From contig NZ_JALBWV010000022.1 in the NCBI RefSeq assembly GCF_022678645.1, positions 62,001-126,000 on the forward strand: a stretch of DNA of 64,000 nucleotides, written 5' to 3'. The notes under the pieces were generated by a model. The model worked only from the letters and a program-made list of their open reading frames with translations, made no database searches and was not told where the DNA came from. This document shows positions 7,566 to 34,072 of the stretch, in pieces (position 1 is the first letter of the stretch; each line of letters starts with the position of its first letter). The stretch comes from Saccharopolyspora soli (GTDB lineage: Bacteria; Actinomycetota; Actinomycetes; Mycobacteriales; Pseudonocardiaceae). The translations under genes were made by a program, and so were the position numbers.

Positions 7566-8786
7566 ATGAGCAGCACGAAGCGATCCGGTTTCGCCGGTAT
7601 CGAGGACACCCTGCGCGACTTCTGGGCGACCCGCCCGGTGCGACCGCGCAACGGTGGCAAGTTGGGAGGGGTGTCGGCGGCCATCGGCCTGCGGTACGGC
7701 GTCGATCCGATCCTGGTACGAGTCGCCTTCGTCCTGGCCACCGTTTACGGCGGTGCCGGTCTGGTGCTCTACCTGCTCGGGTGGCTGCTGTTCCCGAGGG
7801 AGGGCGACCCGGTGCCCGGCTCGACCGAGCCGATCCGACAGCCGACCTCCACCAGGGCGGCCGTGGTGCTCGTGCTGCTGTTGATACCGGGCGTGTTCTG
7901 GCTGACGACCTCGCCAGCCATCATCGGCTTGGCGGTCGGCCTCGGCGCGCTCTACATGTTGCACCGCAACTACGGCGAGAAGGGCATGGCACTGGCCACC
8001 GCAGCGCCGAGCACCACCCGACCGGTGGCGACTCCGGTGGGCGAGAACACCTGGGTCTACCCCGGCGGCACCTCGACCGATGCCCCGGTTGGCGAGTCCT
8101 CGCAGCAGGCGCCGCCCACCTGGGACCCGCTCGGCGCTGCTCCGTTCGCCTGGGACCTGCCCGAGCCCGACGAACCGGAGGATGCCCAGCCACGACGCCC
8201 GCGACGTCGCTGGATCAGCTTCGTGGCCTTGGCGGTGGCCGCGTTCTTCGCGGGCCTGGCCACCACGCTGGGTGCGAGCCTGGGCACCGCGCTGGCAATC
8301 GCGTTGGGCGTGCTCGGCCTCGGCATGGTCGTCGGCGCGTTCCTGCGCGGTGGGCGTGGGCTGATCTGGGCCGCGGTCCCGGTTGGCGCGCTGGCGATGG
8401 TGCTCGGCGCGTCGACCGGATTCAGCGGAGACGTGGGGGACGTGGAGATCCGGCCCACCTCGATCGAGAACGTCGCGCCGCGCTACCAGAAGTCGGCCGG
8501 TTCCATCATGCTCGACCTGCAGGACCTGCGGATGGCAGACGGCCAGGAACTGCGCACCGGCGCCAACGTCGGGATAGGCGACATCACCGTGCACGCGCCC
8601 CCCGAAGCGGATCTGCAGGTTCGGTGCTTGTCGGAGTTGGGCTCCGTGAACTGCTTGGACGTTTCAGCGGACGGCTCGTCGGTGGAGCGCTCCGTCGTCG
8701 ACAACGGCGCGGACGGTCCTGGTGGCGGGCGCATCGTTCTCGACCTGGTGGTTGGTACCGGAGATGTGGAGGTCGTCCGTGGCTGA
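7566..8786 (+). CDS. PspC / toastrack-domain membrane protein (LiaF-like)
   Basis: This is a 406-residue membrane protein. An N-terminal PspC domain (about 27-85) is followed by hydrophobic pairs near 100-125 and 205-275, then a C-terminal beta-rich domain (about 285-405) of the LiaF/toastrack kind. The ATG at 7566 is chosen over a GTG three codons upstream because MSSTKRSG is the natural family start; the ribosome site is weak. It is divergent from the sensor kinase gene. In related systems such proteins restrain the kinase and release it on envelope damage, which is the likely role here. Confidence 0.85.
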   Translation: MSSTKRSGFAGIEDTLRDFWATRPVRPRNGGKLGGVSAAIGLRYGVDPILVRVAFVLATVYGGAGLVLYLLGWLLFPREGDPVPGSTEPIRQPTSTRAAVVLVLLLIPGVFWLTTSPAIIGLAVGLGALYMLHRNYGEKGMALATAAPSTTRPVATPVGENTWVYPGGTSTDAPVGESSQQAPPTWDPLGAAPFAWDLPEPDEPEDAQPRRPRRRWISFVALAVAAFFAGLATTLGASLGTALAIALGVLGLGMVVGAFLRGGRGLIWAAVPVGALAMVLGASTGFSGDVGDVEIRPTSIENVAPRYQKSAGSIMLDLQDLRMADGQELRTGANVGIGDITVHAPPEADLQVRCLSELGSVNCLDVSADGSSVERSVVDNGADGPGGGRIVLDLVVGTGDVEVVRG

Positions 8787-26502: not shown

Positions 26503-26841
26503 ATGGCTACCGATCGGCGCGCGAGCTGGCTCAAGGGCGTACTGGACCTGCTGGTGCTCGCGAGCCTCACCGACGGCGAGAGCTACGGCTACGAGATCGC
26601 CAAGACCCTGGCCGGTACGGGCCTCGGGCAGATCCGCGGCGGCACCTTGTACCCCGTCCTCAACCGGCTGGAGGAAGCGGGCCTGGTGGCGGCCGAGTTC
26701 CGGGTTTCCGAGCGAGGCCCCGGCCGCCGCTACTACCGCCTCACCGAGCAAGGCCGCACGACGCTCGCCGAACAGGCCGGGGCGTGGCTGGCCTTCGACG
26801 AGGCCGTCCGAGCCGTGCTGACCAAGGGAGTCAACAGATGA
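26503..26841 (+). CDS. PadR-family transcriptional regulator
   Basis: The 112-residue protein has the PadR winged helix with YGYEIAKTLAG, the GTLYPVLNRLEEAGLV wing region and RRYYRLTEQGR. The ATG at 26503 has GGAGAGG about 9 nt upstream. It overlaps the following membrane protein gene by 4 nt (ATGA), the classic pairing of PadR with a HAAS-type membrane protein. Confidence 0.93.
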   Translation: MATDRRASWLKGVLDLLVLASLTDGESYGYEIAKTLAGTGLGQIRGGTLYPVLNRLEEAGLVAAEFRVSERGPGRRYYRLTEQGRTTLAEQAGAWLAFDEAVRAVLTKGVNR

Positions 26842-27554
26842 CCTACTTCGACGAACTCACCGAGCGGTTACGCAGCGGCGGCGTTCCCGAGGAACAGGTG
26901 ACCGCGACGATCGACGAACTCGCCGGGCACCTCGCCGAGACCGGGGCCGATCCGGAGGCCGAATTCGGCCCGGTCGACGAATTCGCCGCGCAATTGGCGG
27001 AATCGCGCGGCGATGCCGCCCAACCCGACCCGACAGCCACCACCTGGCGCTGGATCGCCGACGCCTTCGTCGAATTGGACCACCTGGCGACCTTCGGTGC
27101 GCAGGGCTGGGAAGTGACGCACGTCGACAGGACCGGCCACTTCGTCTCCCGCCGCGATCCCGAACGCCCGCAGCGCTGGGAGTACCGCAGGGAAGTCACC
27201 CTCCGGAACCAGGCCGGGGTTGTCGAGCGACTCAGCCCGGACGGCTGGGAGCTGTGCGGCGCGTGGGGCCCCTTCCACTACTTCAAACGCCCGGTGGCCG
27301 CGAGCATCGGTCCGGCCGCTGAACTCAGCACGCCACCGGAAATGCCGCAGCGGAGCAACTTCCTGAGCAAGAAGTTCTGGCTGTTCTGCGGCGCACTGTT
27401 CGCGGGTTTGCTGGTGCTGCAGGTGCCTGCCGTGCTGATCAACGGGAGCTTCGCCGTCCTGCTGACCATCCCGATCGGCATGGTGGTCGGCGGCGCGCTG
27501 GGGGTGGGCATTTCCTGGGCCACCCAGCGAAAGGCGCGCGGCACCGACCTCTGA
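26838..27554 (+). CDS. HAAS-type membrane protein partner of PadR
   Basis: This is a 238-residue protein. The N-terminal 60 residues (MTYFDELTERLRSGGVPEEQV, then DELAGHLAE) form the small helical domain found next to PadR regulators. A soluble middle with repeated GWE motifs (GAQGWEVTHV, SPDGWELCG) resembles DUF4177-like tandem units. Two membrane helices close the protein (about 175-225). The function is probably a membrane effector of the PadR circuit. Confidence 0.75.
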   Translation: MTYFDELTERLRSGGVPEEQVTATIDELAGHLAETGADPEAEFGPVDEFAAQLAESRGDAAQPDPTATTWRWIADAFVELDHLATFGAQGWEVTHVDRTGHFVSRRDPERPQRWEYRREVTLRNQAGVVERLSPDGWELCGAWGPFHYFKRPVAASIGPAAELSTPPEMPQRSNFLSKKFWLFCGALFAGLLVLQVPAVLINGSFAVLLTIPIGMVVGGALGVGISWATQRKARGTDL

Positions 27555-27755: not shown

Positions 27756-29333
27756 ATGCCCGATTCGCCCATCCCGTTATCCGGCCGGGTCAGCCGACGC
27801 GCCGTGCTGCTCGGCGGAGCCGCCGCACTCGGCGCGACCGCGCTCGGCGGGTCCGCGTTGGCCAACGCTCTTTCGCTGCCCGGCGCGGGCACCGGCCGCC
27901 GCCTCGCCGACCCGTTCACCCTGGGCGTCGCCTCCGGTGACCCGCTGCCGGACGGCGTCGTGCTGTGGACCCGGCTGGCGCCGGAGCCGACCGCCGACGA
28001 CGGCCTCGGCGGCATGCCCGACCGGGTCGTGCCGGTGCAGTGGGAGGTCGCCGAGGACGAGCAGTTCAGCACGATCGTGCAGAGCGGCGAAGCGGATGCC
28101 GCGCCGGACCTCGGGCACAGCGTGCACGTCGAGCTCGCCGGGTTGCAGCCGGGCGCGGAGTACTACTACCGCTTCCGCGCCGAAGGCTCGATCTCGCCGG
28201 TCGGCCGCACCCGCACCGCGCCCGCGCCGGATGCGCTCGGCGAGTTGACCATGTGCTTCGCCTCCTGCTCGCACTTCGGCGAGGGCTACTTCACCGCTTA
28301 CCGCCGGATGGCCGAGGACAACCCGCACCTGATCCTGCACCTCGGCGACTACCAGTACGAGTACGCGGCCAAGGACAGCGATGTGCGCGAGGTGCTGGGT
28401 CCGGAGACCCGCACGCTGGCCAACTACCGGCAGCGGCACGGGCAGTACAAGACCGACCCGGACCTGCAGCTCGCGCACGCCACCGCGCCGTGGCTGGTCG
28501 TGTGGGACGACCACGAGACCGAGAACAACTGGGCCGACGAAACGCCGGAGCAGCCCGACGACGGTTTCCTGGACCGCCGCGAGGCGGCCTTCCAGGCGTA
28601 CTACGAGAACATGCCGTTGCGCAGCGGTGCCAAGCCGTCCGGCATCGATCTGCAGCTCTACCGCCGGATCCGCTGGGGTTCGCTGGTCAACTTCCACATG
28701 CTCGACACCCGCCAGTACCGCAGCGACCAGGCATGCGGCGACGGGGTGCAGTCCGGTTGCACCGACCGCGAGGACCCGAACCGGTCGATCACCGGTACCG
28801 AGCAGGAGCAGTGGATCATCGACGGGTTCAACAGCACCACCGCGCGCTGGGACGTGCTGGGCCAGCAGGTGTTCTTCTCCAAGATCGACCTGACGCCCGG
28901 TGCCGAAGAGGGCTACAACATGGACGCTTGGGACGGCTACGTGGCCAACCGCGACCGGATCGCCGGTGCGCTGGCCGACAGCGCGGTCCGCAACGGCGTC
29001 GTGCTCACCGGCGACGTGCACCGGCACTGGGCCGCGGAGATCAAGCGCACCCACGACGATCCGGAATCGCCCGCCGTCGGAACCGAATTCATCACCACTT
29101 CGGTCACCAGCGGTGGGGATGGCAACGACGACGGCAACGAGGACGTGCTCGCGGAGAACCCGCACGTGAAGTTCCACGCCAACCGGCGCGGCTACGTGCG
29201 GACCACGTTCACCGAGACCGAACTGCGCGCCGACTACCGCGTCCTGCCGTATGTGTCCAGACAGGACGCTCCGGCAGAGACCGCGCAGTCGTTCGTCGTC
29301 GAAGACGGCAGCCCGGTGCTCAACCCGGTCTAG
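27756..29333 (+). CDS. phoD: PhoD-type alkaline phosphatase/phosphodiesterase (Tat-exported)
   Basis: The 525-residue protein begins with a Tat signal (SRRAVLLGGAAALGATALGG). Then comes an Fn3-like N-terminal domain and the PhoD metallophosphoesterase domain, with the metal-ligand segments CFASCSH, HLGDYQYEY, WDDHE and VLTGDVHRHWAAE. The ATG at 27756 has TTGGAGGA. Tat export fits the preloaded Fe/Ca centre of this family. It frees phosphate from phosphodiesters outside the cell. PHO control is likely but no PHO box is evident. Confidence 0.93.
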   Translation: MPDSPIPLSGRVSRRAVLLGGAAALGATALGGSALANALSLPGAGTGRRLADPFTLGVASGDPLPDGVVLWTRLAPEPTADDGLGGMPDRVVPVQWEVAEDEQFSTIVQSGEADAAPDLGHSVHVELAGLQPGAEYYYRFRAEGSISPVGRTRTAPAPDALGELTMCFASCSHFGEGYFTAYRRMAEDNPHLILHLGDYQYEYAAKDSDVREVLGPETRTLANYRQRHGQYKTDPDLQLAHATAPWLVVWDDHETENNWADETPEQPDDGFLDRREAAFQAYYENMPLRSGAKPSGIDLQLYRRIRWGSLVNFHMLDTRQYRSDQACGDGVQSGCTDREDPNRSITGTEQEQWIIDGFNSTTARWDVLGQQVFFSKIDLTPGAEEGYNMDAWDGYVANRDRIAGALADSAVRNGVVLTGDVHRHWAAEIKRTHDDPESPAVGTEFITTSVTSGGDGNDDGNEDVLAENPHVKFHANRRGYVRTTFTETELRADYRVLPYVSRQDAPAETAQSFVVEDGSPVLNPV

Positions 29334-29519
29334 GGATCATCGGTCGGTGTGGGCGGTGCTGATCGCGCATCGTCACCGCTCACGCCGACCCACCGCGGCG
29401 GCCGTCACCGCATTCACTGGAAATGCGCCCCCTTCAGGTCAACCCGCTCGTTCCGCAGCGCGCCGCCGATCCGCGTGCTGGGATGCTGCTCCCAGTTCGG
29501 CACGAGAGGATGGTCAACC

Positions 29520-30302
29520 GTGCATGAATCGGAGCACACCGGCCTCGACCGGGAATTCGACGCACTTCCTTTCACCGACCGCTGCCAAACGCTGTGGGAC
29601 CAGGGCGATCATGTGCTGATCGGCGTGAGTCCGGGAAACAGCTACTTCAGCGCGGAGCGGCTGGCCGATCTGATGTCCTGGCTCGCCAAGTACTTCTCCG
29701 CCATCGACATCGTGTACGCGGACCTGCACCTGGACACCGCGATCCACGCCTTGGGCTACTCCCCGGACCACGCGCGGAAGCGTGCCCACAAAGAGCTGCA
29801 AGGCGTTCGGAGACGAATTCGCCGAGCCCTGGAAAACGCCAGAACCGGGGACCGCAGAACACGCGTCTCGGCGCTTTCGGAATTCCGCTCCAACTCCGTT
29901 TACCGAGCCCTGCACGCGAGGCTCGAACACGCTGCTCGCACCGACCCGCTGCTGCACCGGACCTGCGAGGACATGGTGTTGAACGTCCTGCTCGGACGGC
30001 TTCCGGAGACCGCCTCGGTGACGCCCGAGCAGCGCCGCGCGGGGCTGGTCTACCTGCTCGCCGAACTGCCGTTCTTCATCGACACCCCGGCTGTTCTCGG
30101 GGTGCGTTCCTCGGTGGCCTGCCACCACCTGCTCATGCCGTTGACCGGTATTCTCTACTCCGGCGCGGCATCGATCCGAGCGGCTCGGAACCAGGCTTGC
30201 GCGGTGGTCCGCCCGTTGACCATTCCACAGCCCAGGTCCGCCGCTTACGGCGAACTCGCCGCGGAGCCGATCCGGGAAGCCGCCGAGCGGAACTCCCCGT
30301 GA
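29520..30302 (+). CDS. tRNA-dependent cyclodipeptide synthase, orphan, with His at the signature Tyr position
   Basis: This 260-residue protein is a CDPS, which joins two aminoacyl-tRNAs into a 2,5-diketopiperazine. Counted from the GTG at 29520 its residues fall on AlbC numbering: nucleophile Ser37 (LIGVSPGNSYF), Asn40, Tyr178 and Glu182 (VYLLAELPFF), plus the tRNA-binding helix RRRIRRALE. The NYH-subfamily signature Tyr202-His203 reads His202-His203 (SSVACHH). Compared with AlbC as I recall it, pocket positions Leu33, Gly35, Val65, Leu119 and Met152 are kept while 185 is Phe and 200 is Ala. GAGAGG lies about 10 nt before the start. No oxidase, P450 or methyltransferase gene adjoins it. The product cannot be predicted. 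Confidence 0.92.
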   Translation: MHESEHTGLDREFDALPFTDRCQTLWDQGDHVLIGVSPGNSYFSAERLADLMSWLAKYFSAIDIVYADLHLDTAIHALGYSPDHARKRAHKELQGVRRRIRRALENARTGDRRTRVSALSEFRSNSVYRALHARLEHAARTDPLLHRTCEDMVLNVLLGRLPETASVTPEQRRAGLVYLLAELPFFIDTPAVLGVRSSVACHHLLMPLTGILYSGAASIRAARNQACAVVRPLTIPQPRSAAYGELAAEPIREAAERNSP

Positions 30303-30477
30303 CGATCTAGTCTCCGCTGCGGCGCCCGAGTCGTACCGAAAAGCGTTCCGGGACAACCGGATCAGCTCCACACGTTGTACATTGAGGACGTTTGGCTGCT
30401 CGGGTCCTCGGCGGGCAATACGCCACGCTGGGCGCGGCGGGAACCGCGTTCGCCGCAGGCGATGGCACACTTGCCTG

Positions 30478-31065
30478 GTGCGCGGACTATGGGTGGGGCT
30501 GGCGGCGCTGGCCGCGTTCGGGGTGCTCGTGGCGCTGCCGTCGGGATGGGCGTTGGTGCGCAGCGCCCGTCGCATCCGCACCGTGCTCGACGTGCCCGCG
30601 ACCGAGGTGGCGCTGGTGCTGGGCGCGGGCGTGCGCTGGGACGGCAAGCCGAGCCTGATCCTGCGGGGACGGCTGGAAGTGGCGCGCGTGTTGTTCGAGG
30701 CGGGCAAGGTCCGGCGGATCATCGTCAGCGGCAGCCCCGAGTCGCGCGGGCACAGCGAACCCGTGGTGATGCGGCATCACCTTTTGTCCCACGGAGTTCC
30801 GGCTTCCGCGATCGAGCTGGACGAGTCCGGTGTGGACACTTGGTCGTCCTGCCGCCGTGCGGCCGAGGACTTCGGACTGCGCGAGATCACCGTGGTGACC
30901 ACGCTTTTCCACCTGCGTCGTGCCGTGGCGCTGTGCCGCCGAGCGGGCATCGACGCCTACGGCGTCGGCCACGACGCGGCGGCCGACGGCCTGCACCGGG
31001 TGGCCGCCCGCGGTGCCCGCCGCGAATTCCTCGCCACCACCAAAGCGTTCTGGTGGCGCCGCTGA
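30478..31065 (+). CDS. DUF218 (SanA/YdcF-like) membrane protein
   Basis: The 195-residue protein has one N-terminal membrane helix and a DUF218 domain (VALVLGAGVRWDGKPS, then IIVSGSPESRG and TLFHLRRAVALC). The GTG at 30478 follows an ACACTT-like -10 by a few bases and has no ribosome site, so it is probably leaderless. DUF218 proteins are tied to envelope integrity or vancomycin sensitivity. Nothing links it to the CDPS gene beyond proximity. Confidence 0.85.
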   Translation: MRGLWVGLAALAAFGVLVALPSGWALVRSARRIRTVLDVPATEVALVLGAGVRWDGKPSLILRGRLEVARVLFEAGKVRRIIVSGSPESRGHSEPVVMRHHLLSHGVPASAIELDESGVDTWSSCRRAAEDFGLREITVVTTLFHLRRAVALCRRAGIDAYGVGHDAAADGLHRVAARGARREFLATTKAFWWRR

Positions 31066-31258: not shown

Positions 31259-34072
31259 GTGATCGCTCGAAAAGTCCGCGGCTGGTTGAGCGCGTGCTGC
31301 GTGGCGTTGTTGTCCATCGGCTTGCTAGCGGCCTTACCAGTGCACCGGGCGGAGGCCATGCCGTCCGGGTTCGTGCTCCGCAATCAACCCAGCGGGCAGG
31401 CGGCCTTCGACCTGACCGACTTCGCCTACCTTCCCGACGACAGCGTGCTGAGCACCGGCAAGAAGGGCACCGTGGCGTGGGTTTCCGCCGATGGCCGGAC
31501 CCGCACCATCGCCAGCCTGCCCGTCGACCCCACCCAGGACCTCGGGCTGACCGGCATCGCGGTGGCCCCGGACTACGAAACCTCGCGGCACGTCTACCTG
31601 ATCCGCTCATTACCCCAGGGCACCGGCGACCACCTGCTGCGACTCGCGCGCTGGACGGTCACCGGTGCCCCGGAACCCACCGGCCTCACCGGTGAACAGG
31701 TGCTCTTCGAATTCCGCAGTCCCTACGCGGTGCACGGCATGACCGGGATCGTCGCGGCCGATGACGGAACGCTGTGGGTTTCCGTCGGCGACCTCTCCGA
31801 TTTCACCCGCACCGACCGGAATGCCCTGCAGGCCATGAACCTCGACGCACCCAACGGCAAGATCCTGCACGTCACCGCTGATGGCCGGGGCGTGGCCAGC
31901 AACCCGCACTACCAAGCGGCCAACCCGTCGTCGTGGCGCAGCCGGGTGTACGCCAGCGGTTTCCGCAGCCCGTTCCGGCTCTCGCTGGACCCCAGCACCG
32001 GCACCCCGATCGTCGGCGACGTCGGCTACAACACCTGGGAGGAGCTGGACCTCGTCCGGCCCGGCCAGAACTACAAATGGCCCTGCTGGGAAGGAAACCA
32101 CCCGACCCCCGGCTACGCCGAACTGCCCGAGTGCGCCTCGGTGGTGAACACGCCACCGCTGTGGGAATACCACCACGGCGGCGGCGTCGACCAGGGCAAC
32201 AGCGTCACCGGCGGCATCGTCTACCAGGGCGAGAGCTACCCGCAGGCGTACCGGGGCGCGTACTTCTTCGGCGACTACACCACGAAGAAGCTGTGGACGC
32301 TGCGCTACGACGCGCAGGGGAAGCTGGCGCGGGCACCGGAAAGTCCGCCGTTCGGCAGCGACATCGGCGGCCCGGTGAAGTTCGCCGCCGCACCCAACGG
32401 CGACATCGTGCTGGCCGACATCTACTCCGGCGCGCTGCGGCGGCTGAGCTATCCGCAGGGCAACTCCGCTCCGGTGGCCCAAGCCGAGATCACCACCGAT
32501 CCGACGACCCGCACGGTCACCTTCGACGGCTCCGGATCGCAGGACTTCGACGGCGATCCGCTGACCTACCGCTGGGAATTCGGCGACGGCGCGACCGGAA
32601 CCGGCGCGCGCACCAGCCACACCTACCCGCCCGGCGATCGCTTCACGGCACGGCTGACCGTCTCCGATCCGCTGGGTGCGTCGGGCAGCGTTGACGTGGT
32701 GGTCGCACCGGCGAACAACTCGCCTCGGCTGGAGCTGACGACACCGGGCGAACGCACCTTCGCCGTTGGCGAGCCCGTGGCGCTTTCCGCGCAGGCGACC
32801 GATGTCGAGGACGGCACAACGCCGGTGACCTGGACCAGCTCCGAGGTGCACTGCCCGGAAGAGGCGACCTGCCACCAGCATCCGGGCGTCGGCGGCACCG
32901 GCGGGAGTTTCCAGGTCGCGTTCACCGATCATCCCGATTCGCACATGGAGATCACCGCAACCACGACTGACAGCGCCGGGGTGCGCAGCAGCGAAACCTA
33001 CCTGGCCATGCCGCGCGAGCACCTGCTCACTTTGACCAGCAATGCGCCCGCCGTGCTGCAGATCCCGTCCGAGGGCGGGCGGAGCTCCGCGATGGTCACC
33101 GAAGGGGCCACCCTGGACGTGGTCGCGGCGGCGACCGCCACCGACGGCGTGTCGAGCTTCGCGGGCTGGACCGATGGCGTAACCGATCGATCGCGGGTGC
33201 TGACCATGGGCACCGGTGACCTGACGCTCACCGCCCGCTACACCACCCCGATCGACCAGCGGTACGCGGCCGAACCGCAGCTGCGGGACGTGCTCGGCCA
33301 GCCCGTCGGTCCGGAGATCGCCGAAGGCGGCATCCGCTACCGCGACTACGAACGCGGGCGGCTGTACTGGACCGCGCAAGCCGGCGTGCACTACGTCTTC
33401 GGCGGGAACCTGGCGAAGTACTTGCAACTCGGCGCGCACGGCAAGTTCGGTCCGCCGACCACCGATGAACTGTCCACAGCGGACGGAGTCGGGCGGTACA
33501 ACGACTTCGCCGGGACACCGGAGAGCCTGGCGGCGTCGATCTACTGGAGTCCGGACACCGGTTCGCACGCGGTGTGGGGCGTGATCCGGCAGAACTGGGC
33601 GGCCACCGGCTTCGAGCGGGGTCCGCTCGGCTATCCGACGACCGACGAAGTGACCACACCGGACGGGATCGGGCGCTACAACCACTTCTCGAAGGCTGCC
33701 TCGATCTACTGGACGCCGACTTCGGGTGCGCACGCGATCTGGGGCGCGATCCGGGTGACCTGGTCGCAGTTGGGCTGGGAACTCGGCCCGCTCGGGTACC
33801 CGACGACCGACGAGGTGACCACACCGGACGGCGTCGGGCGCTACAACCACTTCACCAAGGCGGGCTCGATCTACTGGACTCCGCGCACCGGCGCCCACGA
33901 GGTGTACGGGCGCATCCGGGAACGCTGGTCCGCGCTCGGTTGGGAACGCTCGTACCTCGGCTACCCGACCACGGGTGAGTTCGCGGTGTCGGGAGGTCGC
34001 CGCAACGACTTCGAGCACGGCTACATCCAGTGGAACGCCGCCAACGACACAACCGTCGACCGGCGGTACTGA
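31259..34072 (+). CDS. Secreted sugar-dehydrogenase-like protein with PKD and LGFP repeats
   Basis: This is a 937-residue exported protein. A signal peptide (about 1-33) precedes a six-bladed glucose/sorbosone dehydrogenase-like propeller (about 40-400; VSVGDLSD, RVYASGFRSPFRLSLDP). A PKD domain follows (about 405-480, YRWEFGDG), then an Ig-like segment and at least four LGFP repeats at the C-terminus (LGYPTTDEV, IYWTP units). LGFP repeats are thought to attach proteins to the actinobacterial cell wall. The GTG at 31259 has AGGGG nearby. The likely role is a wall-bound, PQQ-type or cofactor-free carbohydrate-binding or oxidising protein. Confidence 0.85.
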   Translation: MIARKVRGWLSACCVALLSIGLLAALPVHRAEAMPSGFVLRNQPSGQAAFDLTDFAYLPDDSVLSTGKKGTVAWVSADGRTRTIASLPVDPTQDLGLTGIAVAPDYETSRHVYLIRSLPQGTGDHLLRLARWTVTGAPEPTGLTGEQVLFEFRSPYAVHGMTGIVAADDGTLWVSVGDLSDFTRTDRNALQAMNLDAPNGKILHVTADGRGVASNPHYQAANPSSWRSRVYASGFRSPFRLSLDPSTGTPIVGDVGYNTWEELDLVRPGQNYKWPCWEGNHPTPGYAELPECASVVNTPPLWEYHHGGGVDQGNSVTGGIVYQGESYPQAYRGAYFFGDYTTKKLWTLRYDAQGKLARAPESPPFGSDIGGPVKFAAAPNGDIVLADIYSGALRRLSYPQGNSAPVAQAEITTDPTTRTVTFDGSGSQDFDGDPLTYRWEFGDGATGTGARTSHTYPPGDRFTARLTVSDPLGASGSVDVVVAPANNSPRLELTTPGERTFAVGEPVALSAQATDVEDGTTPVTWTSSEVHCPEEATCHQHPGVGGTGGSFQVAFTDHPDSHMEITATTTDSAGVRSSETYLAMPREHLLTLTSNAPAVLQIPSEGGRSSAMVTEGATLDVVAAATATDGVSSFAGWTDGVTDRSRVLTMGTGDLTLTARYTTPIDQRYAAEPQLRDVLGQPVGPEIAEGGIRYRDYERGRLYWTAQAGVHYVFGGNLAKYLQLGAHGKFGPPTTDELSTADGVGRYNDFAGTPESLAASIYWSPDTGSHAVWGVIRQNWAATGFERGPLGYPTTDEVTTPDGIGRYNHFSKAASIYWTPTSGAHAIWGAIRVTWSQLGWELGPLGYPTTDEVTTPDGVGRYNHFTKAGSIYWTPRTGAHEVYGRIRERWSALGWERSYLGYPTTGEFAVSGGRRNDFEHGYIQWNAANDTTVDRRY

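Follow-up and report, generated by a model that had tools for sequence, protein, structure and literature searches.

A cyclodipeptide synthase gene of Saccharopolyspora soli with histidine at the position of the catalytic Tyr202

Can a cyclodipeptide synthase (CDPS) close its ring without the tyrosine known from AlbC as Tyr202? The question is raised by a gene in a 64,000-nucleotide stretch of Saccharopolyspora soli DNA (assembly GCF_022678645.1, contig NZ_JALBWV010000022.1, positions 62,001 to 126,000), hereafter the window. The gene, at 29520..30302 on the plus strand, runs intact from a GTG start to a TGA stop and encodes 260 amino acids. Codon 202 (30123..30125) is CAC, histidine, where relatives have tyrosine, and lies one transition from TAC. 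The role of Tyr202 in ring closure is disputed in print. From quantum mechanics/molecular mechanics calculations, PMC5935735 concludes that Tyr202 passes a proton on in its neutral form when the ring closes, a task for which Ser or Thr would be less suitable, and expects this relay to be universal. According to a 2026 review based on AlphaFold 3 models (PMC12945691), Tyr202 apparently takes no part in the final attack, and water is invoked. The tyrosine at this place in Nbra-CDPS forms a hydrogen bond with the RNA's terminal adenosine (PMC13062777). Mutants of Y189 in ParcuCDPS (PMC7613923) were dropped as evidence on residue 202: counting from E171, Y189 would fall on AlbC position 200, yet the introduction of that paper lists Y189 as conserved.

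By homology the window protein is a CDPS, as an earlier note made from the sequence had proposed. In profile searches it matches Pfam CDPS (PF16715) over positions 1-220 of 220 (E 2.7e-81; 272.9 bits, the cut-off being 27) and TIGR04539 (E 5e-78, 261.6 bits), and its PDB sequence matches include 2x9q (E 9.3e-52) and AlbC 3oqv (E 1.4e-46). The AlphaFold2 prediction made with an alignment of 29 rows (pLDDT 85.5, pTM 0.81) has AlbC 4q24 as its top PDB match in a structure search, with a TM-score by target length of 0.89; structures of the XYP subfamily match far more weakly (best E 1.2e-9 vs 6.8e-22). Residues 19 to 236 of AlbC align with the window CDPS without a gap, so that AlbC numbering carries over directly. 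The acyl-accepting Ser37 and the NYH-subfamily residue Asn40 (SPGN, codons 29628..29639), the anchoring Tyr178 and Glu182 (YLLAE, codons 30051..30065) and the NYH-subfamily residue His203 (CAC, 30126..30128), all on the plus strand, are kept. Residue 202 is the histidine that the earlier note had read there, so the catalytic tyrosine expected of a CDPS is absent. The strict NYH combination of Asn40, Tyr202 and His203 is thus broken at its middle member, and the XYP pair (Tyr202, Pro203) is replaced by two histidines. The tree described below places the enzyme among NYH enzymes, but with Tyr202 absent it does not belong to NYH in the strict sense and is termed NYH-type. A probable ribosome-binding site read from the sequence, gagagga (29504..29510, plus strand), lies 9 nt 5' of the GTG. 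No second CDPS was found in the genome.

The frequency of His202 was judged from CDPS sequences of the window's family (matches in 91 of 390 genomes), order (28 of 397) and class (28 of 394), of the Streptomycetaceae-like family of genome G867 (147 of 394), and from a genome-contig scan (best 80 of 189 relatives); matches from the window's family, its class and G867's family were fetched only in part. The 305 loci examined, some of which repeat one place, gave 260 distinct aligned sequences including the window CDPS, AlbC and 2x9q, identical sequences having been merged; four loci gave no open reading frame (ORF) match, and 42 loci (duplicates or neighbour genes) were excluded. The set is mostly actinobacterial and skewed towards kin of the window CDPS. 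Within it residue 202 is Tyr in 254 sequences, Gln in three, His in two and Phe in one, which bears out the suspected rarity of the variant; the two His202 carriers are the window CDPS and a locus here called L280. The Gln202 and Phe202 sequences have lost Ser37 as well and for that reason look like non-catalytic relatives. Ser37, Asn40, Tyr178 and Glu182 are all kept in 248 sequences, 246 with Tyr202 and the two with His202. In the open-licence literature, which leaves aside articles under subscription such as the 2015 survey of the family, no description of a natural His202 CDPS was found in titles, abstract starts and selected passages.

The survey also turned up other departures at catalytic positions. 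Three divergent CDPS-like sequences (L341, L342 and L343, from genomes G244, G242 and G243, with ORFs of 421, 576 and 261 amino acids) have Gly37, Asp40 and Gln202 and are possibly non-catalytic relatives, and the homologue L175 (genome G1059) has Arg37 and Phe202. In the window's own genus, L012 and L013 (genomes G006 and G005) have Ala for Ser37 and retain Asn40, Tyr178, Glu182, Tyr202 and His203. Arg203 occurs in five CDPSs with Asn40 and Tyr202 (L008, L173, L211, L219 and L320), four of them with an SPGNGYF or SPGNGWF loop.

L280 is the CDPS of genome G1177, of a Kitasatospora-type genus (g247). Its codons at this site, TGC CAC CAC, are those of the window gene, its P1 pocket motif is LGVALFFS, and Ser37, Asn40, Tyr178, Glu182 and His203 are intact. 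An open cytochrome P450 gene, 83% identical to the P450 of locus L074, lies downstream. Its nearest Tyr202 relative, L269, is 80% identical to it, the window CDPS only 50%. A tree of 57 hand-chosen sequences, built with column 202 left out and with SH-aLRT (approximate likelihood-ratio test) values as its only support, sets the two His202 enzymes far apart, and the residue requires two separate changes. By these comparisons His202 has arisen at least twice. The clade of His202 relatives that the earlier note had proposed looking for did not emerge from alignment or tree: the two cases are unrelated, L280 being an independent change, and in L280's genus, where 35 of 70 genomes have a match, all other CDPS loci among the 30 inspected carry Tyr202.

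The remainder of the protein appears constrained. Among 24 columns conserved in at least 90% of the 260 sequences the window CDPS differs only at 202; 161 sequences depart at none of these columns and 47 at one. Relative-rate counts for the window CDPS and its near relative L017, with six outgroups, were 29:34, 20:29, 23:32, 16:19, 27:29 and 19:16, i.e. fewer changes in the window CDPS with five of the six (largest chi-square 1.65), and in the 57-sequence tree its terminal branch is 0.72 against 0.81 for L017. The lineage is not accelerated. The ratio of nonsynonymous to synonymous substitution rates (dN/dS) between the two is 0.349 at a dS of 1.26, near saturation. For L280 and L269 the ratio is 0.395, compared with 0.377 for the control pair L269 and L075; towards L286 values are higher and alike (0.567 for L280, 0.586 for L269). 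No measure, then, points to long-standing decay, although a very recent inactivating change would look identical in such comparisons.

The substrate pocket appears to be of the tryptophan kind. The P1 residues of the window CDPS, LGVALFFA, are those of 33 of the 260 sequences. In Table 2 of PMC5816076 this motif stands in two rows, each with tryptophan in both pockets. Ala200 (codon 30117..30119, plus strand), which the earlier note had singled out as unusual, is the last residue of this motif and so ordinary for the group; given that table, the idea that it is an oddity was rejected. The motif carries the pair, VA or IA at P1 positions 65/67 within an LGVALFF(A/S)-like motif, that marks group cW2X, with the caveat given in PMC5816076 that one Phe-accepting enzyme also has VA. 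The P2 residues, MNVGLMP, have no exact entry in Table 2 of that paper. An altered product range, as the note had suggested, is not the natural reading of His202, since residue 202 is described as catalytic (PMC5935735) and lies outside the P1 and P2 pocket residues listed in PMC5816076. The tree places the window CDPS beside L017, in a fork within which it does not settle the exact sister of the window CDPS. This fork lies close to the base of a set that includes CDPSs of Streptomyces purpureus (L078), Streptomyces lavendulae (L059) and Streptomyces xanthophaeus (L057), together with AlbC and the Rv2275 type. Strains of the three named species are reported to make guanitrypmycins, in which cyclo(Trp-Trp) is coupled to guanine or hypoxanthine by a P450 (PMC7954767); the S. 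xanthophaeus strain of that study, NRRL B-5414, is the strain of L057.

The gene also lacks the usual partner of such enzymes. Of 81 relatives, the 68 for which 900 bp or more of downstream sequence was available were searched with two P450 query sequences; in 65 of these tryptophan-type members a same-strand P450 follows within 1.5 kb. The exceptions are L073, L162 and L170; L162 and L170, for which only about 1.5 kb downstream was covered, retain Tyr202-His203. The window CDPS has no P450 beside it; it is followed by a DUF218 gene and so does not form a CDPS-P450 two-gene cluster of the guanitrypmycin type. The note's statement that no tailoring gene adjoins it held when the neighbours were profiled on both sides: PadR, HAAS-like and PhoD to the left; DUF218, a protein with glucose/sorbosone dehydrogenase-like (GSDH), PKD and LGFP parts, and TsaD to the right. 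Elsewhere in the genome, the L124 P450 has its best homologue on another contig, at 36% identity. A link between absence of the P450 and change in the 202/203 pair is suggestive at most. L073 itself (8001-8660, Streptomyces humicola) is a member of the NYH tryptophan-type group with the XYP-type pair Tyr202-Pro203. At L060 (1155-3596) CDPS and cytochrome P450 share one open frame of 814 codons; a CDPS-P450 fusion has been reported for CDPS 71 (PMC5816076).

The insertion site can be delimited by comparison with congeners. The left neighbour encodes a PhoD-like phosphatase (27756..29333, profile match) and the right neighbour a DUF218 protein (30478..31065, start re-placed at GTG 30478), both on the plus strand. 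In nine of the 21 other genomes of the genus these genes are adjacent across a short spacer with no CDPS, and the PhoD 3' end is alike in all nine. In the window the segment from the PhoD stop to a conserved box before DUF218 (29334..30459, plus strand) contains the CDPS instead; the box itself, CGATGGCACACTTG (30460..30473, plus strand), lies just 5' of the DUF218 start, and its core GGCACACTTG is found in 7 of the 9 congener spacers. Two further genomes, G008 and G006, have PhoD C-terminus fragments beside DUF218 (L222 and L225), and because only these fragments remain PhoD seems to have been lost there. TsaD lies beyond DUF218 in seven of eight congener loci and, with the adjacency in the nine genomes, this marks the PhoD-DUF218-TsaD frame as conserved.

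The block had been described as breaking conserved synteny, which is correct for what has been added and not for the frame. Besides the CDPS, the window has a PadR regulator and HAAS-like pair just before PhoD (26503..27554, plus strand, profile match) that was not found in the four congener loci reaching past PhoD; hence the groES-TsaD interval of the window carries additions other than the CDPS. Of these four loci, three have groES about 0.7 kb from PhoD (the fourth has MarR), compared with 3.7 kb in the window. Beyond DUF218, a large protein with a glucose/sorbosone dehydrogenase-like domain, PKD and five LGFP repeats (31259..34072, plus strand, profile match) is conserved in part of the genus. 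GC and GC3 are 0.660 and 0.812 for the CDPS, 0.700 and 0.924 for PhoD, and 0.724 and 0.878 for DUF218; HAAS and TsaD are lower in GC3 than the CDPS. Horizontal gain of the CDPS as a single gene would be the simplest account, loss in the other congeners being the alternative. A phage or plasmid vehicle was rejected, there being no phage match and only matches below 60% identity among the 21 plasmid records recovered; a viral-contig scan, limited to close-relative patterns, found no relative of the CDPS.

From pocket, locus and conservation we infer, at about even probability, a horizontally gained, stand-alone tryptophan-type CDPS that still closes the ring with His202 in place of the Tyr202 proton relay. 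In such an enzyme Trp would be loaded from Trp-tRNA onto Ser37 and a second aminoacyl group then joined. Tyr202 would have become His by a single TAC-to-CAC transition, and the ring would still be closed, perhaps more slowly, with the imidazole or an ordered water transferring the proton. The predicted product, cyclo(Trp-X), would be released untailored because the usual adjacent P450 is absent. Continued activity is plausible since a histidine might serve as proton relay or hold the hydroxyls of the adenosine, and the review that models the final attack without Tyr202 (PMC12945691) counts in its favour. There is a little less than an even chance for the broader proposition, that both His202 proteins are natural CDPSs at work, whose imidazole either takes over ring closure from the 'strictly conserved' tyrosine or sends the dipeptidyl-enzyme along another route of release.

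Several observations weigh against continued ring closure, and most of them favour its main rival, a recent loss, which is a serious contender if a less probable one. On that account the CDPS arrived with no P450 to partner it, selection was relaxed, and the change from Tyr202 to His was an early inactivating step, leaving a protein that would stall as AlbC Y202F does; this mutant forms the aminoacyl-enzyme and accumulates dipeptidyl-AlbC (PMC5935735). Of 76 columns conserved among the 82 sequences of the tryptophan-type group, the window CDPS departs at eight, where the group median is none. His202 is found in one genome per lineage only. Matches to a P450 in the flanks of the window gene are at chance level, and a decayed P450 beside it was rejected. 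Besides the lack of any adjoining tailoring gene, where nearly all tryptophan-type relatives have a P450, the P450-less L073 is also altered in its 202/203 pair. Nor does constraint elsewhere in the protein prove that the His form works, because a single recent transition leaves no trace on rates or other columns. Yet the ORF is intact, residue 202 is the sole change among the 24 strongly conserved columns, and the rate is not accelerated. Nine of the 76 group columns differ in L017 and likewise in L060, each of which has Tyr202 and a P450, and 12 to 26 of them in four other members. L280 has His202 with its P450 in place, and L162 and L170 keep Tyr202-His203 with no P450 within the 1.5 kb examined.

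Two further explanations carry little weight. It is improbable that the outcome of the reaction has changed, such that the dipeptidyl-enzyme would be released by hydrolysis as a linear dipeptide, or by transfer to an amine, and neither the window CDPS nor L280 would any longer be a diketopiperazine synthase. The substrate-loading residues are intact and the ring-closing one is altered, and a histidine beside an acyl ester could activate water. L280, however, is still paired with a P450 of the kind acting on cyclodipeptides (PMC7954767). A base-call error, with TAC (Tyr) as the true codon, is very unlikely: the codons are one transition apart and the sequence comes from a draft assembly in 184 contigs, but the same change occurs in the unrelated genome of L280 and the other strongly conserved columns are clean.

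Two naturally evolved His202 enzymes in which the rest of the catalytic residues are preserved offer a test of the role of Tyr202 beyond crippled mutants. If they are active, Tyr202 would not be obligatory, the rule by which working CDPSs are recognised in genomes would need widening, and the same one-base switch would have arisen at least twice among tryptophan-type CDPSs. If they are dead, His202 would mark an inactivating first step.

Among known systems the nearest counterparts are CDPSs of the NozA and guanitrypmycin kind (group cW2X, Gondry et al. 2018; e.g. the S. purpureus two-gene cluster with GutD5737). They share with the window CDPS the P1 motif LGVALFFA or LGVALFFS and Ser37, Asn40, Tyr178, Glu182 and His203, with identities of about 44-50% across the aligned columns and 46-54% for the best-matching segments; unlike them, it has His in place of Tyr202 and no downstream P450. 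AlbC of Streptomyces noursei (3oqv, 4q24) has the same fold at about 39-41% identity but carries Tyr202 and Leu200, and its P1 pocket accepts Phe. Rv2275-type cyclodityrosine synthases include the best PDB sequence match (2x9q, 41% identity), but have the P1 motif VGVTMLFN and Tyr202, and the window CDPS, at 228.8 bits, stays below the cut-off of 300 set for NF052540. Only L280 shares His202, by the same codon CAC, and it differs in its independent origin and in having kept its P450.
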